DNA of 64,000 nt. Source: Mimachlamys varia (lineage: Eukaryota > Mollusca > Bivalvia > Pectinida > Pectinidae). The stretch spans positions 37,577,426 to 37,641,425 of the forward strand of contig OX392534.1 in the NCBI GenBank assembly GCA_947623455.1, given 5' to 3'. Each line of letters opens with the position of its first letter. The first letter of the stretch is position 1. Positions 42,739 through 64,000 of the stretch are shown here, piece by piece. The notes beneath the pieces are model-generated. The model was not told where the DNA came from, made no database searches, and saw only the letters and a list, made by a program, of their open reading frames with translations. The translations under genes and the position numbers were made by a program.

Positions 42739-42796
42739 ATGGATACCGATTTTTTGGGGGCCATAAGAGATGAAATTGCTCTGGAAGGATTAGATG
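42739..42796 (+). CDS. GTF3C1: GTF3C1 coding exon 1
   Basis: Starts at ATG in ACAAGATGG, a fair Kozak context, and encodes MDTDFLGAIRDEIALEGLD plus the first base of Gly. The EVALEGLDG-like end is a hallmark of the family N-terminus. Donor GTAAGA, phase 1. A likely 3' splice site just upstream (ending 42720) suggests that the 5' UTR is split. Intron 1 (325 bp) shows nothing notable. Confidence 0.85.
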
Positions 42797-45700
42797 GTAA
42801 GAAACTGATTGATGTCTAATATTTATTAATGTTATTCAGTTTATTAAATTGGACAAAAATGTAACTTACATGTATCTTAATTCAACTTTGCTTTCATCAG
42901 ATTAAGAATATATTCCTACATTCATTCATGAGATGACACTTATTCAGCAAATGTTTTATTAAATATTAGTTCATAGTTTGATTTCTTTATTAATTTGAAA
43001 ACATTATATTGTTTTCTCGTCTTTTATAAAGCCATGAAATTTAATTACATGTAATTCAGTTACTTTTGACATTAAATTTTTGCACATTTTGTTTTTGTTA
43101 TGTAAATGTGGATATTTTCAGGTATAAGCATCGAGTCCCTCTGGATGAGGTTGGCCGCAAGACAGAATTTTCCCATCAAATTAACTGACAAGTCGAAAGC
43201 GTACCTGTGGAGGTGTCTGGTCACACTACAAGGCCTGGAGTACTATGAGATCCCGGAGCTTCGACCACCTTTAGTTGTTTACAATAGCCTAGAATCTTTT
43301 GACCCAGACTCGGGGCGACTCATTGAACTAGTAAGTTTCATGTGTCTATACCATAATAGGAATGGTTCTTCAAGCCATTGTGATAAATAGTTTTCAAACT
43401 CTCATTGGGATTCTTGAATCTTAAAGCTCCTCAATGGGGGTCTGCATGACTCCCATTCGGAAATGTTATTGGGGTGAAAACCTGTGACAAAATTTTTATG
43501 TCAATTAAATCTTTTTGAGTCATATGTTATTTTGTGTCCTTATATTAGGTACTATTTAGGATTGTTTCATTCTCTGTTATCAAAATACTAATTTACTTTC
43601 TTATACAGGTACTTGTAGTTTGAGCGAATTGTATAAAAGTTAGCATCATTGATCATTGTTGCATATTGAAAGCATGAATGCATCTTGAAGATCCTCTATT
43701 CCTCTCTCCCTCTTGTGGTCTTAAGCTTCAAGTACTACATATGGAATATGACAGCAGGAAACCGGGGATAAATAAATAAAATTGAAAATTGTGCATTTAT
43801 GTCAAATCTAGGTAGTTATAAACTCAAACTTGTTTGTCAAAAAATTTTACATTTTCATGCAATCTAGAATTAATATCCAGAAACTTTTTCATGCAGATTT
43901 GGGTAAAAACGGTTGTGCATGTGAAATCAAAAGTACAAAAATCGGGATTATATTGAACTGATGTTTAAGATGAAATCATCAGATGTTAAAAAATAGGAAT
44001 AGTAAATAAAGCAATCTCATAGTCTGAAATTGTTTAATTTTATGGTACAAAGTCGGTAGTCTCCCTTCTATATAGAGAGGGTTGGCAAGTATGCAAATCG
44101 ACCTGTGGGCTATTATTAAACAAATGATGAAAAGGTACACCTGGGATGACTCCCTAGGTGACTTGCACTAAAATTATCATAAACTAATAATGCAGTTACA
44201 TTAAGTACAAATAGAAATGTTTAGTTAGCTGTTGATTTTAAAATATACTATTACTAGCTTTTAAACTCAAATTGCAAATACTTGGCAAAACCTGGATAAT
44301 ATATATAATTATTAAGTTTGCTACAGTATCCAATTTATTTTTTACTAATATTAATACTTCATCCTGTTTAGAACAGTTATATAGTTTGCTGTTGATATTA
44401 AAATATACTATTGCTTGCTTTTAATTTCAAATTGCAAATACTTGGCAGAGCATGGATGATAAATTTATCAATGAAATTCGCTATATTATCCATTTTTTTT
44501 GACTACCGGTAATACTTTATCCTGTTTAGAACGGTTATATAAAGCTTAAATGTGTTTGTGTTGATAGGAACAGGTTCCAGCAGATCCATATCCCATTAAC
44601 ATTGTATGCAAAGATGGTATATATGGATCATGTGCGATGTTTGAAACCCGGAAAAATGTGACAGCTTTGGTGAAAGCAGACGGAGAAAAACCAGCGGTTA
44701 CCCTAGAGGAAGCTAGAACCACGTCAGTATTAAAACTTTCTTTTATATTCTCTGAACTCTGATTTTAGCCCACCATCATCTGTTAGTCGGCTATTCAAAT
44801 CACCCTTCATCCATGGTTTGTCGTCTGTCTGTCCTTAAACTGTTTTTGTTACCACTATTTCTTGAGAAGTACTGGACATATTCTCAAATTTCTTATTAAG
44901 ATTACCCTTAATTGGTCTCTAGTTGTATACTGTCCCATTTTCTGACTGAAGAAATACTGGATTGATCTTTCACAAATTTCATGTACCAGGTAGGTTCCCC
45001 TGGGCATCAAACCTGTTTGTTATTTCTTTTTGAAGTAATTATAAACGTTTAGTAAGTTACATATATATATTATATATACGGTATGTGTCTTGAAAATATT
45101 TATATTGTTGATTAGAATCACTCAAGGTTTATAAAGAACCAGATTATTTGATGGTTTTAAAGTTTCAGTTTGGAATTCATATCGCTGTATCTATTTGCTG
45201 TATGATTTGGTATTTCTGATATTGATTTATGTTTTTGATTTAGCTGGGGTGAGAAGCTGGTGAGTGTGGCCTCCTAGGAGATTATATCGCTGTATCTGTA
45301 TGCTGTATGATTTGGTATTTTCTGATATTGATTTATGTTTTTGATATTTAGCTGGGGTGAGAAGCTGGTGATTGTGGCCTCCCAGGAGATTATATCGCTG
45401 TATCTGTATGCTGTATGATTTGGTATTTTCTTATTTTAATTTATGTTTTTGATTTAGCTGGGGTGAGAAGCTGGTGATTGTGGCGTCTCAGGAGATTCGT
45501 GGGAATGCTATTTGTGGACATCTGTACGACCCTACTCACAACTGGTCCGTGATGACCCATGCTTACTGCATTCTGGAGAGAATCGGCAGGTAATATATCC
45601 CTAGGTGATGAAATAGAACCATATTGTTGGCAACTGATTCTCCATGATACAAAGGTCAAGTATTTGCGTTAAAGAGGTACACCTGAATTAGGGATTCACA

Positions 45701-48700
45701 TGAATTCCAGATTAGCTTTTATAAGGATGGTATTCAGAATGCTTCAAGTTACCTAAAATCTCTTTGACGATGGAATGTGTAGAATATAAGGATGATAAGA
45801 GAAAGTTTCACAATTAAAGGGAGATAATTTATCTAGAAACTTTAGGTACAATTGCACTACCGATTTAACCAGTTGAACTGGTTAAACGTGGAGCGAAAAC
45901 ACCAGGCACAAATTTGGATCGAGGCTGACCTCTGGAAAATCTGGCACGTGTAATTTGAGGGATTCAGACAAACTGCCGAAACTAAATTACTGACTATCGT
46001 TAGCATGTGTTAATTATTTTCTTAAACAATGTCAATCCAGATGAAGATGAAAATATGTAAAGATATGTTCTATAATGTAGTGGACATGTGAAATAACAGC
46101 ATTTTATTCTTTGTATATCATTAATTTCTCCTCCAAAACTGTGGATTTTTAGCTCTGCCTATAGTTCGGTCCAAGTCCGGTTGTTTATCGTGGAATATTT
46201 TTGTGCCGGTTCAACGTGTAGCATGAATGTACCCTAGATGATGATTAGAGAAAGTTTCACAATTAAAGGGAGATAATTTACCTAAAAAATGAGATAATTA
46301 GACCTGACGCTTCAATATGAATTCTAAGTTAGTAAATCTTGAGAATATTCTCTAAAAGGCATTATCCCATTTGTATTGAGCATTTCAAAAATAAATCTGT
46401 GAAGCTCAGTGTGGAATGAAACTTCAATTGTTAGCAGTAAGGAAGTGATGCATTTTAAGTATATAAAGTGTACATGATTATTTTGCTCAGTTTTATAGGC
46501 AATAGTGTATTATTTTCCCAAAATAAAAATTAAGAATATTCCCAATTTAGATAAAAAGAATTTTATCTTTTTCTATTTCTTAAAGGATTGAGCTTTTTAG
46601 ATTTTTTTTTAGTTTAAAACACTTAAGTGTCTCTTACCCTTGATTGTTTTTTAAGTCTTTGCACAATTCTGAGTGCCTTTTTTATGGTCATTGTGCAATA
46701 TCTGTATGTCACAGTTCAGTGGTTATATGTGGGTTTTTTCAGGTTGCGGTTCAATGGTTATAATGTGTTTTTTCCAGGTCGGGGTTCAATGGTTTTATGT
46801 GTTTTTCCAGGTCTTGTTTCAATGGTTATTTGTGTTTTTTCCAGGTCAAGGTCCAATGGTTAAATGTGCTTTTTCCTGGTTGTGGTTCAATGGTTATTTG
46901 TGTTTTTTCCAGGTCACGGTACAATGGTTATATGTAATTTTTCCTGGTTGTGGTTCAATGGTTATTTGTGTTTTTCCAGGTCACGGTACAATGGTTATAT
47001 GTAATTTTTCCTGGTCGTGGTTCAATGGTTATATTTGTTTTTCCAGGTCACGGTACAATGGCTGTATGTCCGTGGGTCCCTTCAGCCTACAGGTGTTCAG
47101 TATGCCTCCTAAGACCATGTTCTACCATACCAAAATTCTGGTGAAGTTAGGACTGGTCAAAAAACAAGTGAGTGTTTATTTAAATCGTTTAGTGAATAAA
47201 ATGTAAATCACTACATTTATAAGATGGTCCAGCTGTCGGGCCAAACCTTATTTATTTTTGTGGAAGTGGTTTTGTGATCTCCACCTTGGGTATGTTTCGT
47301 ACCATATATTGCTGTCCAGCTTAAAGCTTAAAGGTCTCTGGTATCTTTTTTGAATAGAAATTGAAATGTTTCGATTTTCTATACATTCAGATTTAAGCAT
47401 AACAATGATTGAGAAAATGTAGAAAGTCCTATACAAGTGTGATGGTTTTCTATAGAGGTATGTGAGCTGTCATTGTAAAGTATGTACCCTGTTACAGAGC
47501 TTAACAGTGGTGGATATAAAACACAAACAACAGATTCGCCGAATCTTCCACCTGGAGCGGTTCTACAAGGAGATCCAGTCCAAGTACAGTATACTCCTTA
47601 TGCAGGCTTGTAACTACCTGGCCAACTGTCCTAATCATCGAGATCTCGCTAGCACCATACGCGAGCACCTGGTAGGTTGTCTTTTGACCGGGTTATATCG
47701 CATGATAGAACTGACCATTAATATGTTTCAGTGAAAGTGTCTAGAGTTACAGTGACGTGTCGTAACATATTTAACCTGTTTTGTACTTAAAGTTCAGTCA
47801 AAATGCCATCAAATGTTATTTTCACGGCATGTGATTACCCTATCTAGTCAATCTCCTGACGTTGAGACAAAGATTATATGTTGGGTCCCTCGGCTTAATA
47901 CAGGAAAAGCAATGTAATATCAAAGCAATGTATTACCAAAAATGTTCCTGTGTTTGCATAATTAGGAATTCCATTTCATGTCCAAACACATTCACTACAT
48001 TTTTATTGAAGAGTTTTTCGTTGTGCATATTAGTGATTGGGTCTGTCAAGTTTTGAGCGGAAAAACAGAATTAGAGACATCTAGCGATAGCCTCTGTAAC
48101 TACTGTAAATATGGGAGACAACTTCTGTAGTATCTGGTGCTTCTCAGAGTATAAGGCTAGAAGATCATCAATTTAGAACGGTTAAATATAACCTGCATTA
48201 CAGTATTACATGGGTTTAATACGCAAAATTACATGACATCAATATATTCACTGGATAACACTACATTATGTAAGGGAGAATACTCTTGTAAGGCATCTTT
48301 ATAACTGCAGGCAATAGCATTATTTAACCTTACATACTGAAACTGTGCGAGTCCATCGTTTGATTTTGTGAGGTTTAAATGTGACTTTGTGGTGAATGGG
48401 TTACGACATAGTTGAGTCATATCTTTCATTTTCACAGATTTGTCAATTTGTGCACCTTTGATTATTGTAGGAAGTAGACGCTACCTTGTTTAAGAAGTTG
48501 TACTACACCTACCCGAATTTCCTACGTGCTGAAAGACTTACATACAGAGACATGTTTCCAGAGGCTCCCGAGGAGGAGTATATGTGCAAGTAAGTAGATC
48601 TAGTGTTACAGCCATAAGTAAGTAGATCTGGTGTTACAGCCACAAGTAAGTATGTCTAGTGTTAGAGCTACAAGTAAGTAGATCTAGTGTTACAGCCACA

Positions 48701-51700
48701 AGTAAGTTTTTCTGGTGTTAGAGCCACAAGTAAGTATGTCTGGTGTTACAGCCACAAGTAAGTATGTCTAGTGTTAGAGCTACAAGTAAGTAGATCTAGT
48801 GTTACAGCCACAAGTAAGTTTTTCTGGTGTTAGAGCCACAAGTAAGTAGATCTAGTGTTACAGCCACAAGTAAGTATATCTGGTGTTAGAGCCACAAGTA
48901 AGTAGATCTAGTGTTACAACCACAAGTAAGTATATCTGGTGTTAGAGCCACAAGTAAGTAGATCTGGTGTTACAGCCACAAGTAAGTAGATCTAGTGTTA
49001 CCGCCACAAGTAAGTAGATCTGGTGTTACAGCCACAAGTAAGTAGATCTGGTGTTACAGCCACAAGTAAGTAGATCTGGTGTTACAGCCACAAGTAAGTA
49101 GATCTAGTGTTACAGCCACACGTAAGTAGATCTAGTGTTACAGCCACAAGTAAGTAGATCTAGTGTTAGAGCCACAAGTAAGTAGATCTGGTGTTACAGC
49201 CACAAGTAAGTAGATCTGGTGGGCTGCCACAAGTAAGTAGATCTAGTGTTACAGCCACAAGTAAGTAGATCTAGTGTTACAGCCACACGTAAGTAGATCT
49301 GGTGTTACAGCCACAATTAAGTAGATCTGGTGTAAGAGCCACAAGTAAGTAGATCTAGTGTTACAGCCACAAGTAAGTAGATCTGGTGTTACAGCCACAA
49401 GTAAGTAGATCTGGTGTTACAGCCACAAGTAAGTAGATCTAGTGTTACAGCCACAAGTAAGTAGATCTAGTGTTACAGCCACAAGTAAGTTGATCTGGTG
49501 TTACAGCCACAAGTAAGTAGATCTAGTGTTACAGCCACACGTAAGTAGATCTAGTGTTACAGCCACAAGTAAGTAGATCTAGTGTTACAGCAACAAGTAA
49601 GTAGATCTGGTGTTACAGCCACAAGTAAGTAGATCTAGTGTTACAGCCACAAGTAAATATGTCCAGTGTTACAGCCACAAATAAGTAGATCTGGTGTTAC
49701 AGCCACAAGTAAGTAGATCTAGTGTTAGAGCCACAAGTAAGTAGATCTGGTGTAAGAGCCACAAGTAAGTAGATCTAGTGTTAGAGCGACAAGTAAATAT
49801 GTCCAGGTTTGTGGACAAATAAATACACTAGTACGTCACATCATGAGGAAGAGCCAATAACATAATAGTATTCTGAGACTTCTATAGAAAACCGATTCCG
49901 CAGTTATGAAACTACATGTATGTTGTTTTATCTTGTCTATGTTTGACTCGGAGACTGCCCCTATTCTTCGAATTGTTTTATATGACTGAAATTAGAATAT
50001 TTCCATGATTGCTTCAGATATCCAGGTTAGATATTGTGTTAGAGTAAACTTCATTAGCTGTACATGCGACATATAATAAAAACTTTCAAACTGTTCATTT
50101 ATTTTAATCAAGGGTAAAGTTTTCGTTTTTTGACCTTAGGAATATTGCTCTATAGAAATCAATGTTAGATTTAGGACATTTTATAAGGGAGATCTTCTTT
50201 GATATTTGATTATAAGAGGGTTTGTTTGACAAAGTGTTACTATGGTGTGCTGACCATTCCAACAGGAATCGACTCTCCGAGAAGATGGTTCACAGTATCA
50301 CCATGCTTCAGCATCCGTCTGTGAAGAAAGAAGACAGCGAGGAAGAAGGCGAGGACGAGGGGGAGGAAGATGGAGCAGGTGCCACTGGGACCGATTTGTC
50401 TAGTAAAGCAAGACTGGGTAGGTAGTATCTGGAGTATCTCTGAATTATAGATTTACTGTAAAACCCAGCTATACAGTAAAACTCCACTTTGATTTTGTGG
50501 GGATTTGATCAATAGTTCGAGAAATACATGGTATGCGAATAATCCAAGGTTGGTTGAATATACACAAACTTGGTCCGGACCAGACAAACTGTTTGATGAA
50601 TGGAGGGTAGTTGAGTAATCAGGGTTTTACTGTACATATTCATATTTAATGTTTGCTTGATTGTTAGAGTGGCTTTAAGTCGGCTTTACTTTGGATTACA
50701 TCTTTTATTCCTTTGCCAATATATCTAATGCTGATGTAGATGTAGATGACTCTTCTGAGCAGCTGTTAACACAGCCCTATAAACAGGAGTAGAATTGAGT
50801 TTCCAGGAACTTCTTAAGAAATCACCGGTAGAAAAAAATATAGATCATGTATCTCACAGCTGTTAAGAGTCTTCAACCACATATTTGTTGTTTTAACTCA
50901 TTCACCCCTGAAATTTTAAAATGAACTATTCCAACGTTTGAATTGGAAGAGTTAAAATGTGTCTTCAGGGGTAGAATGAGTTTAAACGCTTGCAACTCAT
51001 TTGAGGATGTTATATTTGTTGTTTCTGTCGGTCAGTCATTTGTACAGCATCTGGATTAGACTTTGTGTTAAGCTCCATTTCTTATCAAGCTAAAAGATGT
51101 GGTCTTAAAAAGTACAACAGTGGAACCCACTTATTATGATATTGGCTATTATCTATATTATCAGTATGATGTCAGAAATCAATAAAGAGTTTAACATTAT
51201 TGTCATAAACAACTAAAGACAACTCCTTTATTATCAATATATGCCATTTTCATTGAAAAGAATGTTTGATTATTGTTTTAAAGTAATATTTTTGCTTTTT
51301 CAGTTTATATTGTTTTATGCATGTCATAATAGGTGGGCTCCATTGTATAACATCTTGCTGATATAGGACAGTGCTGTGTCAATTGATGCATTTCTTTCAC
51401 ATTTGATTGTAACTATTCGTAATTTTGTGTGAACTTTGTAACCATTGGTAATTTTGTGTGAATTTTCAGAATAGACAGGGTTCTGTAGTAACATGAGAAA
51501 TTGTGATAATCTGAATGTAAGGCGGTGTTTTCATTGTAGAAAAATACGAGTGGGTTTACGAGAGATCTACACTTCGGCAGTGTTATGATGCCATCAGAAA
51601 TGTGGGTACGGAGGGAGTGACTCAAATAACCCTGGCAAAGATACTCGACCTCAGTGACAACATGGCGCGTGTTCTCATAAAAAACATGATTCGCATGAAC

Positions 51701-54700
51701 ATGGTTGATCAAATCCTGAAGGAAGAAGGCAAGCAGAAGGTCAAATTGTAAGTGTTCAAAGTCGTTCAATAGGGCAGGCTGATTCTGAATGTAACTCATT
51801 TCTTTTTTGCACCGTTTCTAAGAAAATGCCGACATTTTAGTTAGCCCTTACTTGGTAATAAGGATGGCTCTCGATAGGTATAAAAAGCTCATTGTCAAAC
51901 CGGTCCATTTAAATACTGTCTTACAATGCGATTCAATGCTCTGTGCACCAGGCAAATGATTTAAATAATCAAATGCACTCACGTGAAAATTTTGGAAGAC
52001 AACACTGCTAAGCTGGTTGTAATTTACTCGTCACCAAGCAGAAGAAAAACTAAAATGTCAGCACTTGGTTTAGATACGAGACAGCTGGAAGAGATTTTCA
52101 CAGAGGAACATATCAAAACAGTAAAGGCTCAATTGATAGCCTTTTAATTTGCATTGTCAGATCTAAGTATTCGTAGGATAACAAAAGATTGATTAAATGT
52201 AAAATTTTTGGTTTGTTTTTTCAAATTTTACCTTATTTAGAGAACTGAAATGACAAATCTCCACAAACATTCTAATATAAAACAATATGATTGGGACATG
52301 AAAAATGTGTCTGATTTGATCATGATGTTTGGCCATGAAATGTAAACCTTGCAAAATAAGCTCACTTTATAATAATTTGTTTGTTATATAGTATACAAGT
52401 GAAAATCTGTTTTTATTGTGCTCGTTCTTTCTAGTTTTATAGCTAAGGAACATCGACTCCAGAGTAAGATTTATCAAGAATTCTTGGAAGAAAAAGAAAA
52501 GCTCTTCCTGAAGAAAGATCTGTCTTCTGGATCTGGTGATCAGGGCTCAGGTATGCTGATTGTTCATATATCATAAGTGTTAACCTTTCATACCTTCAAT
52601 GAGGGAGATCTCCCTCACTCCATATTTCCAATGAGGGAGAAAGTGCGTGAAATGCGACTGGAACTGCATTGCTCAATTTGTCTTTTCCATTTTATGTATC
52701 AAAATAACTTCAAAAAGTATTCATTTGATCCATGGGTTGACATGTACTTGAGAAAATTTTGATCCAATTTTAAATAATGGTATAAGTATAAGAAAGCCTC
52801 AGATGGTTTGTATTTCAGGGTTTCAAAGTCATCGTCATGGTTACCATTACTATTTAATATAATTAGTCATCTAATTTAGTGACATCACTCTGTCATTACT
52901 ATTTCTTTATAAATTTAATCAAACTTTATGCAAAAATCAAATTTCAAAATATTTTGAATGATTTCTACAGAGTGTCAAGGTCGCCATTGCTATTTGTAGA
53001 AGTTTGTCAAACTGTCACACTAATTAGCATATTAGCAGGGATTGGCTGGTTTTATTTCTATTTGAAATAGGTAAGGAATAGAAGTCTGCTGTCTCACTAA
53101 TACTTTAATAATGAAACTGACGTTTATGGGTACAATATTTAAATAGATTCAAGTCCATTTAAATAAGAATGAAATCAGGGGTCAATTGAGGATAAATTTC
53201 ATTGCTGTTGGTTATTCATTATACTCGTTTGATAAAATTTATACTATGAAAATAAACAAAAATAAATTACTGTTACTGTACATCTTTAAATGGTAATCTT
53301 ATTTTAGCCTGTTTTGCGCTGGAAAATTTTTGCTAATTAATATTGCGTTAATTTCAATTTCTGTTCATTGCTTTCTATGGCACGTACTGTGGTTGTGCCC
53401 AATTTGTAATTGTGCTTATCTGTTTGAATCGGGTTATGTGCTGAAGTCTTGAGTGTGCAAAAGTTTACAGTATTCTTATAACAAAACTTAAATAAAAACT
53501 TTCAGGACCATCCCAATCAAACGCCACAACTCCAGCTCAAGCTAACAATACTGAAACTATGGACGTATCGGTCCGTGGTGATGTGAACACCAGTTATAAT
53601 GGAATAAAACAGGAGGATTCACAGTGTGAGACCACAGTCATCCGAAGTTGTGAAAACTTACTGGCCGTGAACGAGGTTAAAGAAGGGGTGAAAAAAAAGG
53701 TGAAGTTCCGAACGAGGCGGAATATGGCAAATGACCAGAGATCACAGCTAGGTAAGTTTGATGGGATTTTAGTTACTTTTTGATTTTATCTGAAGAACCA
53801 ATTTAACCAGTGAAAGTTTTGTAAAAGGATGGGACAGAATTATACGAACCTAGTCAGTCCTGTACAAACAAGTCAAGAAAGAATTTAATCCGTCAGATGG
53901 ATATTGGGCAAAGTATTACAAAATGTTACCTGTAATACATATGTACATCTTACTTCTTACCACAAATTGAGGAATTTGAAACATTTTTTATTGTATTTAT
54001 GTCGTTTTTTTTTTTTTAAATTTTCCAAGTGCTTGGAAATTGTGTTCAAACAAGCTTTTACAGCTTATGTTTGGCCATGAATGCAAATAATCAACTGCAA
54101 ACAGGACCTAATTAACACTGAAATGATTTGTTTATTCTGCAGAGACAACACTGACAAGTCGACATCTGAAAAGAATGTCCATGATACTTGAAGCAGTAGA
54201 AAAGGATAAAGTGTTGGAGAAAACCCACACCTTCATCAAGGTAAAAGTACAGGTACCAGGTGTTAAACCCACACCTTCATCAAGGTAAAAGTACAGATAC
54301 CAGGTGTTAAACCCACACCTTCATCAAGGTAAAAAGTACAGATACCAGGTGTTAAACCCACACCTTCATAAAGGTAAAAAGTACAGATACCAGGTGTTAA
54401 ACCGACACCTTCATCAAGGTAAAAAGTACAGATACCAGGTGTTAAACCCACACCTTCATCAAGGTAAAAGTACAGGTACCAGGTGTTAAACCCACACCTT
54501 CATCAAGGTAAAAAGTACAGGTACCAGGTGTTAAACCCACACCTTCATCAAGGTAAAAAGTACAGATACCAAGTGTTAAACCCACACCTTCACAGATACA
54601 AGGTGTAAAACCCACACCTTCATCAAGGTAAAAGTACAGATACCAGGCATTAAACCCACACCTTCATCAAGGTAAAAAGTACAGGTGTAAAAACCCACAC

Positions 54701-57700
54701 CTTCATCAAGGTAAAAAGTACAGATACCAGGTGTAAAACCCACACCTTCATCAAGGTAAAAAGTACAGATACCAGGTGTTAAACCCACACCTTCATCAAG
54801 GTAAAAGTACAGACACCAGGTGTTAAACCCACACCTTCATCAAGGTAAAAAGTACAGATACCAGGTGTTAAACCCACACCTTCATCAAGGTAAAAGTACA
54901 GACACCAGGTGTTAAACCCACACCTTCAAGGTAAAAAGTACAGACACCAGGTGTTAAACCCACACCTTCAAGGTAAAAAGTACAGATACCAGGTGTTAAA
55001 CCCACACCTTCATAAAGGTAAAAAGTACAGATACCAGGTGTTAAACCCACACCTTCACAGATACAAGGTGTAAAACCCACATCTTCATCAAGGTAAAAAG
55101 TACAGACACCAGGTGTTAAACCCACACCTTCACAGATACCGGTTGTAAAACCCACACCTTCATCAAGGTAAAAAGTACAGATACCAGGTGTTAAACCCAC
55201 ACCTTCATCAAGGTAAAAGTACAGACACCAGGTGTTAAACCCACACCTTCAAGGTAAAAAGTACAGATACCAGGTGTTAAACCCACACCTTCATAAAGGT
55301 AAAAAGTACAGACACCAGGTGTTAAACCCACACCTTCACAGATACCAGGTGTAAAACCCACACCTTCATCAAGGTAAAAAGTACAGATACCAGGTGTTAA
55401 ACCCACACCTTCACAGATACAAGGTGTAAAACCCACACCTTCATCAAGGTAAAAGTACAGATACCAGGTGTTAAACCCACACCTTCACAGATACAAGGTG
55501 TAAAACCCACACCTTCATCAAGGTAAAAGTACAGATACCAGGTGTTAAACCCACACCTTCATCAAGGTAAAAAGTACAGACACCAGGTGTTAACTCTTTC
55601 CGTACCGTGATTCCGGTCCGGGTTCCGTTCCGGAAGTCATTACTAGGCTCACCCCCAGACGTTTCGGCCAAAATGACGTCTCTTTGTTGTGTTTGCGTAG
55701 TGGATATTATGCCAAAATAATGCAGGTAAATGTAAACCAATGCTCATTTCGGTTCTTCTATAGTTAGAAGACATAAATAGCTTTATTTTCGCAGCAATAT
55801 TTTCGTCAGATGTGGTACCGCTATGTATAGCTAAAGCATTCGCCGTCATGAGATGTTTATATTGGTGATGACACTTCGCAGTATCTCGCGGGAAATTCAA
55901 TCTAAATGGGTCACATGACAGAAAATGTGTACTTAACGCCTGTCTTATTGATTGTTATAAACTGACGCAGTCGATTTTGTGTAAAATGTTATTCGTCAAC
56001 TCATCTGTCGGCTGCTGTACCCAGCTAATCAAAAATTATGTAACGTCAAGTAGCTTGTCGTCTGTATACGACAACGGGGATGAGACGTCACGTTTGTTTG
56101 TCGTCTGTATACGACAACGGGGAGGAGACGTCACGTTTTTTTGTCGTCTGTATACGACAACGGTACGGAAAGAGTTAAACCCACACCTTCATCAAGGTAA
56201 AAAGTACAGACACCAGGTGTTAAACCCACACCTTCACAGATACCAGGTGTAAACCCACACCTTCATCAAGGTAAAAAGTACAGATACCAGGTGTTAAACC
56301 CACACCTTCACAGATACCAGGTGTAAACCCACACCTTCATCAAGGTAAAAAGTACAGACACCAGGTGTTAAACCCACACCTTCATCAAGGTAAAAAGTAC
56401 AGACACCAGGTGTTAAACCCACACCTTCATCAAGGTAAAAAGTACATATACCAGGTGTTAAACCCACACCTTCATCAAGGTAAAAAGTACAGACACCAGG
56501 TGTTAAACCCACACCTTTATCAAGGTTAAAGTACAGACACCAGGTGTTAAACCCACACCTTCATCAAGGTAAAAGTACAGACACCAGGTGTTAAAACCCA
56601 CACCTTCATTTAGGTAAAAAGTACAAATACCAGGTGTTAAACCCACACCTTCATAGATACCAGATGTTAAAACCCACACCTTCATAAAGGTAAAAAGTAG
56701 AAATACCAAGTGTTAAACCCACACCTTCATAGATACCAGGTGTTAAAACCCACACCTTCATTAAGGTAAAAAGTACAAATACCAGGTGTTAAACCCACAC
56801 CTTCATAGATACCAGGTATTAAACCCACACCTTCATAAAGGTAAAGAGTACAAATACCAGGTGTTAAACCCACACCTTCATTAAGATAAAAGTACAGACA
56901 TCAGCTATTAAATTGAATGTTGCCAATGTTTTAGTTTTTATTACACTGAAATTTTAATCCTTCAGGGCTTACTTCATGTGCCTCAGAGACTGTATAGAAA
57001 ATTGAACGTTTGAATCAGTGTAAAATGAGATTATTTTATTTGTGTTGTTAAAACATTATATGCATTGTATGACTTTATAAAGAAGAAAAATGATCTTTAA
57101 TTCAGATGATTCGAGAACGAGAGAAAAGCGAAGGCCTTGACTGCATTATTGACAAGAAAACTTTTGACCGGCTTGCATTGTTGCTGGTGAAACAGAAAAA
57201 AATCAGAATCTTCAAAACCTCCTTCCCAGAGAGTAACAACGAACAGTTGAGAGAGGTGAGTGAAAAATGGAACATCTTGAATATAGTCCAGACAATTCTC
57301 TCTGAATGATTTGGACCCTGTAACCATTCTGTCAGTCTGTGTGTCCACAAATTATTTTCTGGCCAATAACGGCTGATATGTCGGGGGAGGGTTCACAGGG
57401 GATTACCCTTTATTACGTTAACGGTTTCTGTTCTAAATGTAGAAAGAATGAAATGAAACAGTTGTTAATGACCAAACTGTGTAGGGATTGTATCTATTAT
57501 CAGAAGTGAAAACCTAAACTGGATTTATTGGAAGCTAAATTTCTTTTTCTGATTGGCCGAAACATTTTATGGTTGAGTATTATTGTTTGCATCCTACAAG
57601 TCTACTTCTGTATTAAGGATTTCTCTTTTGAATTGTTTTGTAATGAAATCATACTGATGAGCTTTTGTGACTTCAAATTAAGACAAGAATTGTAAATGAA

Positions 57701-60700
57701 TGGCAATGATGTTTGGGATAAACAGGATGTTTTCCAGACTGGGGGGCTGGATATCACAATCTCAACCCAGGGAGTAAGATTGCCGATTGCCAGACAATAA
57801 GAATCTTGTCCGGAGGGTTGAGATTATTGCTGAGTGCCAGACATTAAGAATCTTGTCCGGAAGGTTGAGATTTTTCTGTTCTACTCCTAAAGAGGAGAAA
57901 GAGTATTCCTCCCACATCAAAATCAAGTGGTGTACATGTATATGTAATGAAAATATTTCATAATTTCTAACAAGACAGAGTTATCTTCCTTGGTATGCCA
58001 CTGATGTAGTTGTGTCATTACATTATTGGTATCACATCAATGCTTGGTTAACTGATGACACGGGAACCCTTCACCCTAGGGTAAGACAGAGTTATCTTTC
58101 CCTTACAAGATTTATGGACATCTCTGTCAAACAAATTAGAAATGACATCAATATTTCTGTCTAAGGAAATTAAAATGACATCATATTGCTGTTCCACAGA
58201 TTCAACTGTTGTGTGCCAAGCATATCCAACCAACAGATGCATTGATAAAGAGCAAGTTGGAACAGCTTCACCTGAGGTCGCGCTGTGTACCTAAGGAACG
58301 GCTCATCAAAACGAGGAACAGTCCAGGAAAACAACAACAGGTGGGTTGGTGAAACATACAAGGACAGATAGTAGTTAAGACAACATTGAGTTATTTCTTC
58401 ATTTTGAATTTCAATTCATGTCTATGATCTGTTTATATCTTGATTTTTCCTGTTAGTTTCCTTGGAACGGGGTTTTACAGTATTCAAACTCATGATAGAC
58501 CCATAGGCAATAACCATGGAAATAATACTGTTTTTCTATACGAACAATTTATTATACCCTCCGCAACAAAGTTAAGGAGGGTATACTGGAATCAGGGGAT
58601 CTCAACGAAACTTGGTTGCAATAATCCTTATACATTGTAGATGTGCGTAATCTATATAATGTTTAAAAAAAATTGGTTGCCATGGTAACCAGAACACTAT
58701 ACTTTTATTTTTGGGAGAAAATTTTGTCAGACAACTACTAATAAACCTGTGAACCGTTTCAAGTGAAACTACACAAGGATTTTAGGGACCATGTGTTAAT
58801 GTGCATGCAGGGTATTTTTCTGTAGAAATTTTGGTTGCCATGGTAACCAGGTCAAAATACTCTAATTCTTGTGGAACACTTATTTGTCAGCACAACTCCA
58901 TCTAAACCTATGAACTGATTTCAATGGAACTACACATGAATTTAAGGGACTATGTGTATGTATGCAGAATTCTTTCTTTCTAACAGACATTTAGGTTGCC
59001 ATGGCAACCAGGCCATCCATATATACAGCTTTTTGTTGGAAACTTTTGACTAGACAACTCCTCCTAACCAGTGAACCAAATTTAATGAAGTTTCACATGA
59101 ATGTTACGAACCATGTGTAGATATGCATGCAGATGACTTTTTGCAGACTTACGTTGCCATGGTAACCAGGTCACTATAAGTTTGCCAATGGCGTACAGTT
59201 CTAGTTTTCCTTATTTTATGTTATTGAATGCAAACTGTCATCTACAAGTCATTTTTACCAGGTCAAGGTCTGCTCTGTCAAAATTTCAGAAGATTATGAG
59301 AAATTTATCATAATGTAAAAATAGGGAAGAGGATCTTGACCAGTTTACAGAATTTGACATTGTTTTATCATAGATAAATTTTTTTTGTTGACAAAAGTTC
59401 ACCGGTTTACCAGAGAGTACCCAGGAGAACCTGAAAAAGTTACAGGAGTACAAGATGAAGATCAAGTCGTTTGACATGGTCTATGATCCGGTATGTACTG
59501 ACAACTGTAGTCCATTTAATATTTATCTGACAACACCTCACCACAACATGTTAATCTGTGTACAACCTCTGATCATTTTATGACTTAAGTTTGTCAGTTC
59601 TAAATATGCAATGAGTTTAACATTTAGTCTGTTTTAGATTTTTAAATGAGTTTTAAATGCATTTATTCAAATATTGAAACTTTGAGAAGAGCTGCATGTT
59701 TAATTCAAAGTTTACAGATGAATAGAGTTAATAGGTGATGGGGCCCTTGCCCTTGTCATACTTAGTATGACAACTGTCCTGTGTCAGTAGATGTTGGGGC
59801 CCCTATCATATGACAACTGTCCTGTGTCAGTAGATGATGGGGCCCTGTCATATGACAACTGTCCTGTGTCTATAGATGTTGGGGACCATGTCATATGACA
59901 ACTGTCCTGTGTCAGTAGATGTTGGGGCCCCTGTCATATGACAACTGTCCTGTGACAGTAGATGATGGGGCCCTGTCATGTGACAACTGTCCTGTGTCAG
60001 TAGATGTTGGGGCCCTGTCATATGACAACTGTCCTGTGTCAGTAGATGTTGGGGACCATGTCATATGACAACTGTCCAGTGTCAGTAGATGTTGGGGTCC
60101 TGTCATATGACAACTGTCCTGTGTCAATATATTTTCAGGCCCCTATCATATGACAACTGTCCTGTGACAGTAGATGATGGGGCCCTGTCATGTGACAACT
60201 GTCCTGTGTCAGTAGATGATGGGGACCTGTCATATGACAACTGTCCTGTGTCAGTAGATGATGGGGCCCTGTCATACGACAACTGTCCTGTGACAGTAGA
60301 TGATGGGGCCCTGTCATGTGACAACTGTCCTGTGTCAGTAGATGATGGGGACCTGTCATGTGACAACTGTCCTGTGTCAGTAGATAATGGGGCTCCTGTC
60401 ATACGACAACTGGCCTGTTTCAATAGATGATGAGGCCCCTGTCATATGATAACTGTCCTGTGTCAGTAGATAATGGGGCTCCTGTCATACGACAACTGGC
60501 CTGTTTCAATAGATGATGAGGCCCCTGTCATACGACAACTGTCCTGTGTCTATAGATGATGGGGCCCTGTCATATGACAACTATCCTGTGTCAGTAGATA
60601 ATGGGGCCCTGTCATGTGACAACTGTCCTGTGACAGTAGATGATGGGGCCCTGTCATATGACAACTGTCCTGTGACAGTAGATGATGGGGCCCTGTCATA

Positions 60701-63700
60701 TGACAACTGTCCTGTGACAGTAGATGATGGGGCCCTGTCATACGACAACTGGCCTGTTTCAATAGATGATGAGGCCCCTGTCATATGTCAACAGTCCTGT
60801 GTCAGTAGATAATGGGGCTCCTGTCATACGACAACTGGCCTGTGTCAGTAGATGTTGGGGCTCCTGTCATATGACAACTGTTCTGTGTCAATAGATGATG
60901 GGGCCCCTGTTATATGAAAACTGTTCTGTGTCAGTAGATGATGAGGCCCCTGTCATACGACAACTGTCCTGTGTCAGTAGATGTTGGGGCTCCTGTCATA
61001 TGACAACTGTTCTGTGTCAATAGATGATGGGGCTCCTGTCATATGAAAACTGTTCTGTGTCAGTAGATGATGAGGCCCCTGTCATACGACAACTGTCCTG
61101 TGTCAGTAGATGTTGGGGCTCCTGTCATATGACAACTGTCCTGTGTCAATAGAAGATGGGCCCCTGTCATATGACAACTGTTCTGTGTCAATAGATGATG
61201 GGGCCCCTGTTATATGAAAACTGTTCTGTGTCTAGATGTTAGGGCCCCTGTCATATGACAACTGTCCTGTGGCTATATATGATGGGCCTCTATCATATGA
61301 CATCTGTCTGGTGTCTTTAGATGTTGGGGCCCCTGTCATATGACAACTGTCCTGTGTCTATAGATGATGGGGCCCTGTCATATGACAACTGTCCTGTGTC
61401 AATAGATGACAACCAAACAGTTTTAGTTGAATTTGAGTTCTATTTTACCTATATGACATGAAATTCTGTTTGACACAAGTATTACAAGCTTTCCTATGAT
61501 TTGGACTAAAACAATTTGTGTCCGTACAGTAGGAGGATAGATAGTAATGGATGGATTCTTTCCTGTTGTAGCTTGCACCGAAACAGTATGGCTACTTACC
61601 AAAGATGCGGAGATTCTGTATGGCTCACAACATTTTGTGGTATTTGTGTTACGACTACAGAGGGCGCACTTCACCCGAAAGCTCGACACAGGATCCATCA
61701 GAATCCTTTTCAGCCCAAGATATGCCAGTTTCTATGGAAACTCAATCTGCGGCTGTTGATGCATTTGCAGGTGCTTTGAAGACCCCTGAGTCAACAGAGT
61801 TATCTGGAACTGATGTTGCTATGGAAACAGATCAGTCGACAGTTGAAGGTCATATGGATTCAAACAAGCCAGGCAAAAGTGAGACAGCAGGCCCTGGAAA
61901 ATTTACTGATGTAAATATACTATCATTCTCTAATAGTTTGACTGTATATACTCACAAATTATTCAAAATTCATCATCAAGAATTGTTTTTAAAGTGAATT
62001 AGGAAAATTTCTTGAAGTTTAAGCTTAGAGTGATGCGTCTTTGACAAATTAGTGTTGTTTATGTCAACGTTAAAATTCAGTGTACAATTAATAAATTTAA
62101 TTTTACAAAAAAAAACAACAAAAAATAGGCCTACTGATTTCAAACAGGAAATGAAATGGTGAAAAAATGAGTAATTCCCTCTGAAATACAGGCAGACGTT
62201 TAAAAGGAAAACCTCCTTAAATGGACCACCTGTAGTAAGTGATTTCTTATCTTAATAGGGGGATATTTTTGAACAAATACGGAAGCTGAAGGAACCGCCG
62301 TTATTCTGCGATGAAATGTCCTGGAGGCGGTACCTTCCCCCACTACCGAAACATAAAGGTACGAAATATAGAAAATATATTTCTATTTACAAAGGCTGGA
62401 AAAGCTTGTCCTAATGTGATTTGATTTGTAAATTTCAAATAATATGTTAAATATATCATATAGAATTATGTAAGTGGTTATCATGCATGTATAACTGTAT
62501 ACCTTATATTGTCATACAGATATGATAATTTGTCATAAATTCATTTCGGTGAAATTTTTTAAGGTGCAAATTTTTAAAAGATTGATTTGTTTCTGTTCAA
62601 ACACTCTTTTTAAGTGTAATTTAAGGCATAGCTTAATAGGAATAGCTTTACTTGTTGCTTTAAAGCATCAAAGTGCATACTTGCCAACTTTTAGAAATTT
62701 CCATGGGGGAGATTACACGTGCTCGGAATTGAAAACATAAATAATATGTATACATGTACATTCGGAGGAAAAATAATTCTTTTAAATGGCTTCTTTTGAG
62801 CTCTTTTAGATGAAATCATCAGATATTTATAAACAGGAACAGTTAAGAAAATTCCAAAGTTAAAAATGCAACATTTTAGGATCCAAAGTCGGGAGTCTTC
62901 CTCCTAAATAGGGAGGTTTGGCAGGTATGGAAGTGTTGTATCGTCCCAATTTATTTACAGAACATCCAAATGGCTGGTGTCTCATCTCCGACGTTCTAGT
63001 CACTCTCCCCGTCTGTCTGTTCTGTGCCATGGTTCCCGTCAGCTATAATGTAAGTATACATACTAGCGGACCACGTCTATATTTTCATACGTGAGTAAAC
63101 TGGCAAAGATTGACTTGTAGTTGTCTTTGCTTCATAGTCTATATTCTGCTCCGATTTCAATCGTAAATAATTCAAGTGTGAAACATATCATTTAGATTCT
63201 TATTTACCTTAGTCTTTTCAGTACTTTGATTTTAGGAAAATTCGTACAAATTTAATAGTCTTCATTTGCTTTAATCAACATGAATTTAATGATTTTGCAG
63301 CTCCAAGGCCTGAAAGAGATCCTGGATGATCCTGTCAAGTCCCTTTACCCCATTGTGTATCTCCCCTATCGACTCACACAACAGTTACTCTTCGCCCGCA
63401 AGTACATCTTCTCCTTCCACGAGAACTGCGAGAGACTTGCCTACATGGGTCTGCTGTCGTTTGGGACGCGACTTCTAAAGGAGAAAGACCAGGTAAGGAC
63501 TAGTCTCGGGCTTAATCTTCCAAATTATTTTATGTATGAATGAGTGATTTGTTGTATTATATGATTTTGTTAATGTTGGAATGTGTCCCAACAGAAACAA
63601 AATTAATGTGTTTCTTTAAAGAGCTATGGTCTGAAATGTTAAAAAAATAAACATTTCTTGAAAAATTGTCTGAATTTAAGGAAAACTATAATTAAAAAGG

Positions 63701-64000
63701 GATCATCTTTGTAAAAAACTGTCAGACCATTTGATGCCTTCAATTTTATGTTTTGCATGAAATATGATACGCTAGAATTATAATTAATGGAGGAAGATTC
63801 TGATATCATGTTGAACCTGTGTGAGTGAAAAAGGTCTGGGGGAAAAAAAAGAAGATATTTGATATGGAATACATAATATTTTTTTCCTTTTTATGATGCA
63901 GGTGTTTGTTTACCTGTATAAGAACGTGTATTTGAGGGACACGACCCGCTCCCTGGAGGGGTACTGTAAAATTACCATGCCTGACGGTATCCAGTGTGAA
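42739..64000 (+). CDS. GTF3C1: GTF3C1, general transcription factor 3C subunit 1 (partial, 20 exons, runs off right edge)
   Basis: This is the largest subunit of TFIIIC, the nuclear factor that binds the B box of tRNA and similar genes and recruits TFIIIB and RNA polymerase III. I joined 20 exons by GT-AG borders and similarity to the animal GTF3C1 family. All phases agree, giving 2991 coding bases (997 residues), roughly the N-terminal half of the ~2100-residue vertebrate protein. In order there is an N-terminal segment (EIALEGLDG, WGEKLVIVASQ), the B-block winged-helix region (about residues 180-285), an acidic linker (about 338-355), a second winged-helix segment (about 374-450), a basic patch VKKKVKFRTRR (about 540-550), another helical segment (about 565-650), and the conserved block PKMRRFCMAHNILWYL then MSWRRYLPPLP and KYIFSFHENCERLAYMGLL (about 730-960). 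No frameshift or premature stop was seen. Introns are loaded with tandem repeats, several of which duplicate splice junctions. Confidence 0.93.
43122..43330 (+). CDS. GTF3C1: GTF3C1 coding exon 2
   Basis: Acceptor TATTTTCAG, donor GTAAGT, ends in phase 0. It encodes ISIESLWMRLAARQNFPIKL and on to FDPDSGRLIEL. The LW.RL start, LWR..VTL.GL..YE and D...G pattern follow the family. Intron 2 (1237 bp) is AT-rich and holds a partial dispersed element ending ATAGAGAGGGTTGGCAAGTA near 44070-44095, and two ~130-bp diverged duplicates (about 44225-44375 and 44380-44545). Confidence 0.92.
44568..44722 (+). CDS. GTF3C1: GTF3C1 coding exon 3
   Basis: Acceptor TTGATAG, donor GTCAGT, ends in phase 2. Encodes EQVPADPYPINIVCKDGIYG, CAMFETRKNVT and LEEARTT. 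The PI.I...DGI.GSC..F..RKN.T pattern agrees with the family. Intron 3 (735 bp) carries a reversed dispersed repeat and duplicated copies of the next splice acceptor. Confidence 0.92.
44768..45010 (-). repeat. Dispersed repeat in intron 3, reversed
   Basis: Read on the minus strand, this is the family seen at 23450-25740: a TTTCTTGAGAAGTACTGG piece, and the GATTTGAATAGCC..CTGATGGTGGGCTAAAA end near 44768-44800. It shows that the same repeat family has inserted in this gene. Confidence 0.65.
45179..45457 (+). repeat. Duplicated intron 3 end / exon 4 start (two decoy copies)
   Basis: A ~106-bp block that joins the end of intron 3 (ATATCGCTGTATCTGTATGC ... GTTTTTGATTTAG) to the first ~38 bases of exon 4 is present twice before the true exon. 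Decoy acceptors precede 45244 and 45352; the true one precedes 45458. Copy 1 carries TAG in frame and a new CTG|GTGAGT donor-like site. Copy 2 runs into a stop 69 bases after its acceptor. Neither can replace exon 4. Confidence 0.88.
45458..45589 (+). CDS. GTF3C1: GTF3C1 coding exon 4
   Basis: Acceptor GATTTAG, donor GTAATA, ends in phase 2. Encodes WGEKLVIVASQEIRGNAICG and HAYCILERIGR. The WG.KL.IVASQ and YCILER.GR motifs are strongly conserved and mark entry into the B-block region. Only this third copy of the duplicated junction has an exon that continues in frame. Confidence 0.93.
45590..46710. other. Intron 4, left part
   Basis: Mostly AT-rich. A ~50-bp direct repeat AGAGAAAGTTTCACAATTAA + AGGGAGATAATTTA occurs at about 45793 and 46242, bracketing ~400 bp that includes AACCAGTTGAACTGGTTAAA. 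No exon seen. Confidence 0.5.
46711..47046 (+). repeat. Tandem decoy 3' splice sites before exon 5 (~34-bp unit)
   Basis: About nine units of GTTATTTGTGTTTTTTCCAG followed by GTCACGGTTCAATG run straight into exon 5, whose own start (TTTTTCCAG|GTCACGGTACAATGG) is the last unit. Six upstream units keep a full polypyrimidine-AG (exon-like starts at about 46743, 46778, 46811, 46845, 46913 and 46980); the others have CTGG in place of CAGG. By my count each would add 304, 269, 236, 202, 134 or 67 bases, none divisible by three. Confidence 0.9.
47047..47167 (+). CDS. GTF3C1: GTF3C1 coding exon 5
   Basis: Start chosen because the phase from exon 4 and the family pattern (GRSRYNG) require the last unit of the tandem array. 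Donor GTGAGT, ends in phase 0. Encodes SRYNGCMSVGPFSLQVFSMP and MFYHTKILVKLGLVKKQ. The K..FYH.KIL...GL pattern is the winged-helix core of the B-block domain that contacts DNA. Confidence 0.9.
47498..47671 (+). CDS. GTF3C1: GTF3C1 coding exon 6
   Basis: Acceptor CTGTTACAG, donor GTAGGT, phase 0 at both ends. Encodes SLTVVDIKHKQQIRRIFHLE, RFYKEIQSKY and HRDLASTIREHL. The LL.RF....SKY.IL pattern agrees with the family. Introns 5 (330 bp) and 6 (799 bp) have no notable repeat. Confidence 0.92.
48471..48589 (+). CDS. GTF3C1: GTF3C1 coding exon 7
   Basis: Acceptor TTATTGTAG, donor GTAAGT, ends in phase 2. Encodes EVDATLFKKLYYTYPNFLRA and MFPEAPEEEYMC. The K.LY.Y segment fits the family. The donor is the first member of the array that follows, so the border could shift among repeated GTAAGT sites; the first gives the phase needed by exon 8. 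Confidence 0.88.
48586..49808 (+). repeat. Tandem decoy 5' splice sites after exon 7 (28-bp unit)
   Basis: About 43 units of AGATCTAGTGTTACAGCCAC + AAGTAAGT begin at the last bases of exon 7 (TGCAAGTAAGTAGATCTAG). Most units carry AAGTAAGT, a near-perfect U1 match, and TTACAG, an acceptor-like AG six bases before it. Variant units (GTATGTCTAG, TTTTTCTGG) cluster on the left, and the right half is more uniform. It ends near GTCCAGGTTTGTGG. Confidence 0.93.
50266..50417 (+). CDS. GTF3C1: GTF3C1 coding exon 8
   Basis: Acceptor TTCCAACAG, donor GTAGGT, ends in phase 1. Encodes NRLSEKMVHSITMLQHPSVK, then the acidic run EDSEEEGEDEGEEDG and TDLSSKARL. An acidic linker at this place is a family feature. 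The left part of this intron 7 beyond the array (49809-50265) is unstructured. Confidence 0.9.
50474..50632. mobile_element. Pogo/Tigger-like MITE in intron 8
   Basis: Ends CAGTAAAACTCC (50474) and GGGTTTTACTG (ending 50632) are inverted, and each is flanked by TA, the target of Tc1/mariner-pogo elements. About 159 bp, no coding capacity. Confidence 0.6.
51115..51345. mobile_element. Second TA-flanked MITE in intron 8
   Basis: Left end AGTGGAACCCACTTATTATG and right end CATAATAGGTGGGCTCCATTG are inverted with a few differences, beside TA dinucleotides. A mariner-type origin is likely but unproven. Confidence 0.55.
51540..51747 (+). CDS. GTF3C1: GTF3C1 coding exon 9
   Basis: Acceptor TTCATTGTAG, donor GTAAGT, ends in phase 2. 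Encodes KYEWVYERSTLRQCYDAIRN, VTQITLAKILDLSDNMARVL and MNMVDQILKEEGKQKVK. It resembles the second winged-helix segment of the family (ERD...YD.I...G..G.....A......AR.L...). Confidence 0.92.
52435..52550 (+). CDS. GTF3C1: GTF3C1 coding exon 10
   Basis: Acceptor CTTTCTAG, donor GTATGC, ends in phase 1. Encodes FIAKEHRLQSKIYQEFLEEK, EKLFLKKDLSSGSGDQGS. Highly charged and probably helical. Introns 9 (687 bp) and 10 (955 bp) contain no clear repeat or extra exon. Confidence 0.88.
53506..53751 (+). CDS. GTF3C1: GTF3C1 coding exon 11
   Basis: Acceptor AACTTTCAG, donor GTAAGT, ends in phase 1. Encodes a low-conservation linker (PSQSNATTPAQANNTETMDV) ending in the basic patch VKEGVKKKVKFRTRR, a possible nuclear localisation signal, then NMANDQRSQL. 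Confidence 0.85.
54143..54240 (+). CDS. GTF3C1: GTF3C1 coding exon 12
   Basis: Acceptor TTCTGCAG, donor GTAAAA, ends in phase 0. Encodes TTLTSRHLKRMSMILEAVEK and KVLEKTHTFIK. L.RR..I.EAV resembles the family pattern. Its last ~20 bases (AAACCCACACCTTCATCAAG) and its donor are the seed of the following array. Use of the second donor would add 44 bases and shift the frame. Confidence 0.9.
54221..56935 (+). repeat. Tandem copies of exon 12 3' end plus donor (~45-bp unit)
   Basis: About 45 units of AACCCACACCTTCATCAAG|G followed by TAAAAAGTACAGATACCAGG and TGTTA. The first unit is the true end of exon 12. Many units keep the exon tail and the AAG|GTAAAA donor; some are shortened to CACCTTCACAGATACC. 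On the right, variants CATTAAGG and CATAAAGG increase. The array is interrupted by the TTAA element at 55594-56174. Confidence 0.93.
55594..56174. mobile_element. TTAA-flanked MITE inside the exon 12 array, 581 bp
   Basis: Perfect ends CTCTTTCCGTACCG (55594-55607) and CGGTACGGAAAGAG (56161-56174), each beside TTAA (55590-55593, 56175-56178). The array motif GGTGTTAAACCC is restored if one TTAA is removed, so the insertion was into a repeat unit. Near the right end, a ~40-bp motif with a hairpin (GTCGTCTGTATACGAC) occurs three times (about 56059, 56101, 56143). No transposase. Confidence 0.9.
57106..57255 (+). CDS. GTF3C1: GTF3C1 coding exon 13
   Basis: Acceptor TTAATTCAG, donor GTGAGT, phase 0 at both ends. 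Encodes MIREREKSEGLDCIIDKKTF and LALLLVKQKKIRIFKTSFPE. The MI...EK.EG.....KK.. ..L...L pattern fits the family. It joins exon 12 in frame only if the first donor of the array is used, or another one that adds a multiple of three. Confidence 0.92.
57750..57880. repeat. Small two-copy repeat in intron 13
   Basis: TTGCCAGACAATAAGAATCT.. and AGTGCCAGACATTAAGAATC.. with TTGTCCGG and GGTTGAGATT form two ~62-bp tandem copies. The rest of intron 13 is unremarkable. Confidence 0.6.
58200..58340 (+). CDS. GTF3C1: GTF3C1 coding exon 14
   Basis: Acceptor GTTCCACAG, donor GTGGGT, phase 0 at both ends. Encodes IQLLCAKHIQPTDALIKSKL, RSRCVPKERLIKTRNSPGKQ. Low conservation except the I......I...I start. Confidence 0.85.
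58551..59210. repeat. Repeat in intron 14 with four GTTGCCATGGTAACC palindromes
   Basis: Starts with a hairpin TATACCCTCC...GGAGGGTATA (58553-58585). Four ~160-bp internal units follow, each with GGTTGCCATGGTAACC or a variant (58675-58690, 58833-58848, 58994-59009, 59153-59167) and CTACACATGAATTTAAGGGA-like text. The palindrome equals the X-box bound by RFX factors. A related motif is near 40366. Confidence 0.8.
59398..59490 (+). CDS. GTF3C1: GTF3C1 coding exon 15
   Basis: Encodes FTGLPESTQENLKKLQEYKM and KIKSFDMVYDP, donor GTATGT, phase 0. The acceptor is not certain: TTGACAAAAG before 59398 follows a T-rich tract, but CAGAG six codons further in is a weaker in-frame alternative. Confidence 0.75.
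59740..61415 (+). repeat. 42/43-bp minisatellite in intron 15
   Basis: About 39 units of TGTCATATGACAACTGTCCT + GTGTCAGTAGATGATGGGGCCC. Where the period is exactly 42, frames stay open on both strands (for example SVDDGALSYDNCPV on +); these are repeat artefacts. TGACAACTGT in the unit also occurs 9 bases inside the intron after exon 15 (59499-59508), a possible seed. Confidence 0.93.
61572..61910 (+). CDS. GTF3C1: GTF3C1 coding exon 16
   Basis: Acceptor TCCTGTTGTAG, donor GTAAAT, phase 0 at both ends, the largest exon (113 codons). Encodes LAPKQYGYLPKMRRFCMAHN, ILWYLCYDY, and then a Ser/Thr/Glu-rich linker with VAMETDQSTVEGHMDSNKPG. The G.LPKM.R....H..LWYL pattern is a clear family signature. 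Confidence 0.93.
62259..62358 (+). CDS. GTF3C1: GTF3C1 coding exon 17
   Basis: Acceptor ATCTTAATAG, donor GTACGA, ends in phase 1. Encodes GDIFEQIRKLKEPPLFCDEM and SWRRYLPPLPKHK. The SW.RY.PP.P motif is conserved in animals. Confidence 0.92.
62676..62929. mobile_element. MITE-like element in intron 17
   Basis: Inverted ends CATACTTGCCAAC and TTTGGCAGGTATG. Interior motif GATGAAATCATCAGATATTT and AAGTCGGGAGTCTTCCTCCT is shared with a partial copy near 43960-44095 in intron 2. No coding capacity. Confidence 0.6.
62961..63049 (+). CDS. GTF3C1: GTF3C1 coding exon 18
   Basis: Acceptor TATTTACAG, donor GTAAGT, ends in phase 0. Encodes HPNGWCLISDVLVTLPVCLF and CAMVPVSYN. G..L.SD.L..LP...F....V.Y agrees with the family. 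Confidence 0.93.
63301..63492 (+). CDS. GTF3C1: GTF3C1 coding exon 19
   Basis: Acceptor GATTTTGCAG, donor GTAAGG, phase 0 at both ends. Encodes LQGLKEILDDPVKSLYPIVY, YRLTQQLLFARKYIFSFHEN and CERLAYMGLLSFG. One of the best conserved parts of the protein (R..QQLL..R.YIFS..EN..RL.YMGLL.FG). Confidence 0.95.
63902..64000 (+). CDS. GTF3C1: GTF3C1 coding exon 20 (cut by window edge)
   Basis: Acceptor TTTATGATGCAG, open to the last base of the window. Encodes VFVYLYKNVYLRDTTRSLEG, YCKITMPDGIQCE. The exon and the C-terminal half of the protein lie to the right. Confidence 0.9.
   Translation, partial: MFVYLYKNVYLRDTTRSLEGYCKITMPDGIQCE

Follow-up and report, generated by a model that had tools for sequence, protein, structure and literature searches.

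Introduction

Tandem repeats that extend across exon-intron boundaries were named "mirages" in the Adh3 gene of amphioxus. Two reports also describe them in the amphioxus globin genes BflGb6 and BflGb9 and in PGBD5, and cite the troponin C, retinol dehydrogenase and presenilin genes as cases (PMC3087553, PMC3902484). According to their authors, regular splicing appears undisturbed by mirages, and their length varies, at Adh3 even somatically (PMC3087553, PMC3902484). Human genes located in segmental duplications also have variable internal tandem repeats where exons meet introns (PMC2812944). A related model explains intron gain by the tandem duplication of segments bearing AG/GT (Rogers 1989; Zhuo 2007; Gao and Lynch 2009, as cited in PMC3087553). 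Among the literature matches listed, the published mirages that we found were from cephalochordates only, and no mollusc case of border-spanning repeats was recognised from their titles and abstracts, most subscription papers lying outside the search. A minisatellite within an intron has been described in abalone, and the available part of that report does not say that it spans a border (PMC6905558).

Here we analysed a window of 64,000 nucleotides from the scallop Mimachlamys varia (contig OX392534.1, positions 37,577,426 to 37,641,425 of the forward strand), in which a sequence-only reading had noticed four minisatellites at exon borders of the gene GTF3C1. That reading knew of no described name for such a pattern; the amphioxus mirages and the human border repeats cited above provide one. 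We read the GTF3C1 arrays as mirage-type, that is, as a known kind of repeat, present here in a mollusc and with larger copy numbers than the amphioxus counts reported. They probably arose by tandem duplication across splice junctions, and are likely tolerated since splicing would keep the outermost copy.

Results

A 20-exon model of GTF3C1 on the + strand (42739..64000) lies in the 3' third of the window and covers most of the gene, whose 3' end is cut off by the end of the window. Exons 1 to 5 are located at 42739-42796, 43122-43330, 44568-44722, 45458-45589 and 47047-47167, exons 6 to 10 at 47498-47671, 48471-48589, 50266-50417, 51540-51747 and 52435-52550, exons 11 to 15 at 53506-53751, 54143-54240, 57106-57255, 58200-58340 and 59398-59490, and exons 16 to 19 at 61572-61910, 62259-62358, 62961-63049 and 63301-63492, while exon 20 starts at 63902. 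The spliced model consists of 2991 bases, corresponding to 997 codons with no stop codon, and all its introns are GT-AG. The gene had been taken for GTF3C1 from the letters alone, and this identity was confirmed by the match of the model protein to human GTF3C1 (8cli_A, E 1.6e-111) and to three Pfam families of GTF3C1/TFIIIC. The best of 29 protein matches was that of Pecten maximus (74% identity), followed by Argopecten irradians (68%) and then Magallana gigas (34%), identities that point to a scallop, probably of a species other than these two pectinids. Screening of the whole window against Rfam at gathering thresholds gave no match.

TRF and copy-by-copy alignment established that the four tandem arrays, at the acceptors of exons 4 and 5 and at the donors of exons 7 and 12, are real features of the sequence. 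Each of them contains the authentic splice site, always as the outermost copy (first donor or last acceptor), and the body of the array extends on the intron side. The arrays had been described as starting at the exon borders and as using the exon edge in the repeat unit. Their location at the borders holds, but they do not start there, since 40 (exon 4 acceptor), 23 (exon 5 acceptor), 3 (exon 7 donor) and 20 (exon 12 donor) exon bases fall inside them; the exon edge does belong to the unit, although at exon 7 it amounts to merely 3 bases. A unit lying across an exon-intron boundary, which is what characterises a mirage, was thus found in all four arrays, the exon 7 case resting on these 3 bases. 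The splice dinucleotide is present in a large part of the copies and missing from some. The earlier copy numbers of 3, about 10 and about 43 were recovered, whereas the value of about 45 at the exon 12 donor was too low, 51 copies being counted. Because unit lengths and sequences differ among the arrays, they represent four separate events, as had been proposed. A common origin of the repeat units was considered and rejected: unit-versus-unit comparison revealed no clear relationship. In 2 of the 20 comparisons no more than 3 out of 300 mononucleotide shuffles attained the score, and the matches behind it were about 9 bases long.

The array at the exon 4 acceptor (array 1, 45179..45497, + strand) is made of units of about 106-108 bp (TRF 108 bp x 3.0), in each of which about 66 bases belong to the intron and 40 to the exon. 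The authentic acceptor is the last of 3 copies, and both extra copies keep the splice dinucleotide. At the exon 5 acceptor, array 2 (46708..47069, + strand) contains 10-11 copies of 33-35 bp (TRF 34 bp x 10.5) with a higher-order, alternating period of 67 bp. AG is present in 6/9 of its upstream acceptor copies and is replaced by TG in the other 3/9.

Array 3, at the exon 7 donor, spans 48587..49805 on the + strand (TRF 48587-49796, 28 bp x 43.2, with a partial copy running on to 49805) and comprises 43 full copies of 28 bp and one partial copy. GT is retained in 41 of the 43 full copies. The exact motif CAA|GTAAGT is found in 36 copies, the authentic site included, and has zero occurrences outside the array on either strand of the window. 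Raw variation in this array is lower at donor positions than at other positions. Selection on the splice signal was considered as a reason for this difference and rejected, since the kinds of change number 5 across the 9 donor positions and 17 across the other 19, where variation consists largely of a few variants, each present in many copies. The lower raw variation at the donor positions is also a possible result of selection, and as such counts against the explanation that we favour.

The array at the exon 12 donor (array 4) covers 54221-56912 as a whole, with 51 copies and 45-bp units, and is split by an insertion of 581 bp. Its first block (54221..55593, + strand) is composed of 45-bp units, including 20 bp of exon, and of short donorless units of about 30 bp; the second block (56175..56912, + strand) is degenerate at its distal end. 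Some GTAA donor is present in 38/51 copies, and 11 of the 13 donorless copies are short (29-31 bp). The exact AAG|GTAAAA occurs in 36 copies, including the real donor. The inserted element (55594..56174, no strand assigned) is bounded by perfect terminal inverted repeats of 15 bp and has TTAA on both sides (55590-55593 and 56175-56178), a target duplication typical of the piggyBac group. Joining the flanks of the element yields one perfect 45-bp unit. The element therefore sits inside a single unit, so that array 4 predates the insertion, and this greater age makes an assembly artefact less credible.

Copy number in arrays of this type is easily wrong in assemblies; in amphioxus, two assemblies disagree over PGBD5, and BflGb6 proved to be misassembled in the draft (PMC3087553, PMC3902484). 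An error of this nature, whether a false expansion of repeats or the tandem joining of heterozygous copies, is nevertheless an extremely unlikely source of the GTF3C1 arrays. Their copies differ mutually and display higher-order periods, four junctions carry four different units, and array 4 harbours an element with TTAA on either side.

A fifth array was detected in intron 15 (59766..61409, + strand, TRF 43 bp x 38.7), where it spans no border. A stretch of 10 bases immediately past the exon 15 donor is identical to part of the unit of this array, and the comparison of the unit with donor regions gave a score of 20 for exon 15 and of 9-15 for the other 18 donors. The array may be a fifth mirage, but 71 of 2000 shuffles reach the exon 15 donor score and the array begins 276 bases past this donor; it stops 163 bases ahead of exon 16. 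At about 59731, a partial unit (score 27, reached by 0/300 shuffles) adds only a little to the length of the array. Five further GTF3C1 arrays of about 2 copies, at 44222, 47906, 51407, 57779 and 58675 (TRF score of at least 50), span no border either. All 38 borders were also scanned by comparing the 50 bases around each with at most 1000 bases of adjacent intron, using 60 dinucleotide shuffles per border. A strong copy in the adjacent intron was found at 4/38 borders only (scores 56-90, shuffle maxima 25-34). The remaining 34 GTF3C1 borders scored 12-26 and gave no clear decayed mirage, two of them being marginal, namely the exon 14 acceptor (26, shuffle maximum 25) and the exon 4 donor (23, reached by 1/60 shuffles).

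The consequences for the message were deduced from the spliced model and from a protein alignment at the junctions, into which 4 of the 29 matching proteins were taken. Use of the outermost copies keeps the reading frame and adds no residues relative to Pecten and Argopecten at the four junctions, whose residues (TWGEKL, GRSRYNG, CKN and THTFIK-MIRE) aligned without insertion. Inner donors would lead to a premature stop for 43/43 candidates after exon 7, defined by a score above 4 and including one, GGT|GTAAGA at 49751, that is out of repeat register, and for 38/38 candidates after exon 12. The same holds for 2/2 extra acceptors before exon 4 and for 6/6 of those keeping AG before exon 5, some of the premature stops from alternative sites coming after a frameshift. 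Three extra exon 5 acceptors have no AG, and two of these are the sole alternative sites whose use stays open. The scores of the real donors and of their copies were 9.3 and 9.3, and 7.0 and 7.0. Many copies are as strong as the real site, and correct splicing would therefore rest on position.

Judging from the sequence, the gene is likely still to work, since splicing would use the outermost copies only. Under the explanation that we favour, four stretches of DNA spanning a junction would have been tandemly repeated, likely via slippage or unequal exchange, and the gene would likely tolerate the resulting arrays through splicing that keeps to the first donor or the last acceptor. The spliceosome may select the outermost copy by exon definition or by the order of transcription, and messages using another copy would be removed by nonsense-mediated decay. 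Later growth and homogenisation of the arrays would be neutral, as for intron sequence with no function of its own. Mammalian extracts presented with duplicated identical donors can prefer the intron-proximal one, which is the reverse of the choice required here.

The sequence-only reading had also raised selection for redundant sites. Selection that maintains the arrays, either for redundant splice sites or for control over the splicing rate or message decay of GTF3C1, would account for the exact extra donors, of which arrays 3 and 4 have 35 each, but we judge this very unlikely. Redundancy fits badly because the inner sites, nearly always leading to a premature stop, would spoil the message and hardly form a backup for the real one, and because many copies have no site at all (13/51 in array 4 and 3/9 of the extra copies in array 2). 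The fact that the only two array 2 copies staying open in frame are among the three without AG also speaks for selection; the chance of this, calculated by hand, is 3/36, and the three copies share one 67-bp higher-order repeat, so that the argument is weak. The 5 kinds of change at the array 3 donor and the 13 donorless copies of array 4 are as expected without strong selection for redundancy.

The placement of the arrays was compared with a null model in which the founding unit of each array was dropped at random outside pure exon, in this one gene. Ten arrays were used, corresponding to TRF rows with a score of at least 50 merged by hand. An array inside the inserted element (56055-56163) was excluded. 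When weak rows were added in a variant of the test, a 12-bp repeat within an exon (50337-50370), a row within the element (55598) and those nested in the arrays were likewise omitted. Border-spanning arrays numbered 4 of 10 against 1.19 expected (P 0.019, post hoc and from one gene), and 4 of 5 against 0.49 expected when arrays with at least 3 copies were considered (P 0.0003, likewise post hoc and from one gene). This excess over random founding counts against the tolerated-duplication explanation. Addition of 8 weak arrays gave a P of 0.033, and when the exon 7 array, which takes in only 3 bases of exon, was not counted, P became 0.10 for the 10 arrays and 0.0068 for the 5 arrays. The bias claimed earlier is possible in view of this excess, which comes from a post hoc test on a single gene; a border bias in array placement is no more than suggested.

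Splice junctions could accordingly be hot spots for the birth or expansion of arrays in this lineage, for instance through breaks linked to transcription or splicing, with border arrays over-represented genome-wide. Besides the excess over expectation, the 5 larger arrays include every one of the 4 at borders (chance 0.024), a pattern that would indicate expansion rather than birth. We nevertheless hold such hot spots to be unlikely, as the gene was chosen for looking odd, the P value depends on the arrays included, and tandem arrays are dense anyway, occupying 35% of the bases in introns and 56% of those in the 5' flank. G-rich coding strands favour R-loops, which had been put forward as a common cause. 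The GC skew of the four arrays is +0.45, +0.33, +0.16 and -0.24/-0.30, and because its sign differs, base composition gives no support to R-loops as a shared cause. It is similarly doubtful that scallop splice junctions in general are preferred for minisatellite expansion, many genes then holding long runs of sites of equal strength among which the spliceosome must choose by position alone. If true, preferred expansion at junctions would provide a natural system for the study of splice-site choice and of the origin of mirages in distant phyla, and minisatellite expansion would be tied to splicing or transcription were the border bias to prove genome-wide.

Discussion

The closest known counterparts of the GTF3C1 arrays are the amphioxus mirages, with which they share units spanning the boundary, at donors or acceptors, and splice signals that many copies carry and others do not. 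According to the available parts of the amphioxus reports (PMC3087553, PMC3902484), units measure 10-72 bp in Adh3, 60 and 108 bp in PGBD5 and 150-160 bp in the globins, values that lie on either side of the 28-108 bp observed here, whereas copies number up to 43-51 here and 2-7 (PGBD5) or 3-6 (BflGb6) in amphioxus, with no count given for Adh3. The present case further differs in coming from a mollusc and in bringing four arrays together in one gene. With four mirages in one conserved scallop gene, the pattern extends beyond amphioxus. Two of these arrays, in which the authentic donor is accompanied by 35 exact copies each, constitute a natural test of site choice among dozens of equals.

The human boundary repeats are likewise minisatellites at borders, with units of 30 bp on average x 4 (PMC2812944). 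They are associated there with novel introns, altered transcripts and recent paralogs, whereas the gene studied here is old and conserved and its conserved product appears to be kept. As for the intron gain model, AG|GT is found within the units of arrays 2 and 4, as that model supposes, but nothing in the comparison with the proteins of relatives points to a new intron, and the arrays lengthen introns.

Repeat units at splice sites of GTF3C1

The array of 45-bp units which spans the exon 12 donor of GTF3C1 contains, between positions 54581 and 56823, 11 short copies of 29-31 bp. These are devoid of about 15 bases, corresponding to the stretch which carries the donor. Many of them alternate with full copies, generating a higher-order repeat of 74-76 bp. 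At the exon 5 acceptor, where the last copy of the array provides the real acceptor, three of the extra copies (46879-47046) were found to lack the AG. Only two extra copies would be open in frame if used, and both are among these three, a coincidence which may be due to chance (3/36, calculated by hand).

Directly 3' of the exon 15 donor, within 59491-59765, a stretch of 10 bases is identical to part of the repeat unit of the fifth array, which lies in intron 15 and spans no exon border. On the basis of this sequence match, the fifth array may therefore also have started close to a splice site.

Tandem repeats and a possible retroelement remnant outside GTF3C1

At the start of the window (42-3819), about 116 copies of a 32-bp unit form a minisatellite with strong AT and GC skews. 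Upstream of GTF3C1, a satellite array of 25 copies (5608-20943) displays 95-100% likeness among many copies. The spacing within the array is 783 bp at its beginning, falls to about 575 bp midway and rises to about 880 bp at its end. Judged by eye, positions 39081-39860 resemble a reverse transcriptase remnant of a retroelement. The G-rich minisatellite at 27447-28969 (about 40 copies of 37-38 bp units) contains long open frames on both strands and is likely to be a source of false gene calls.
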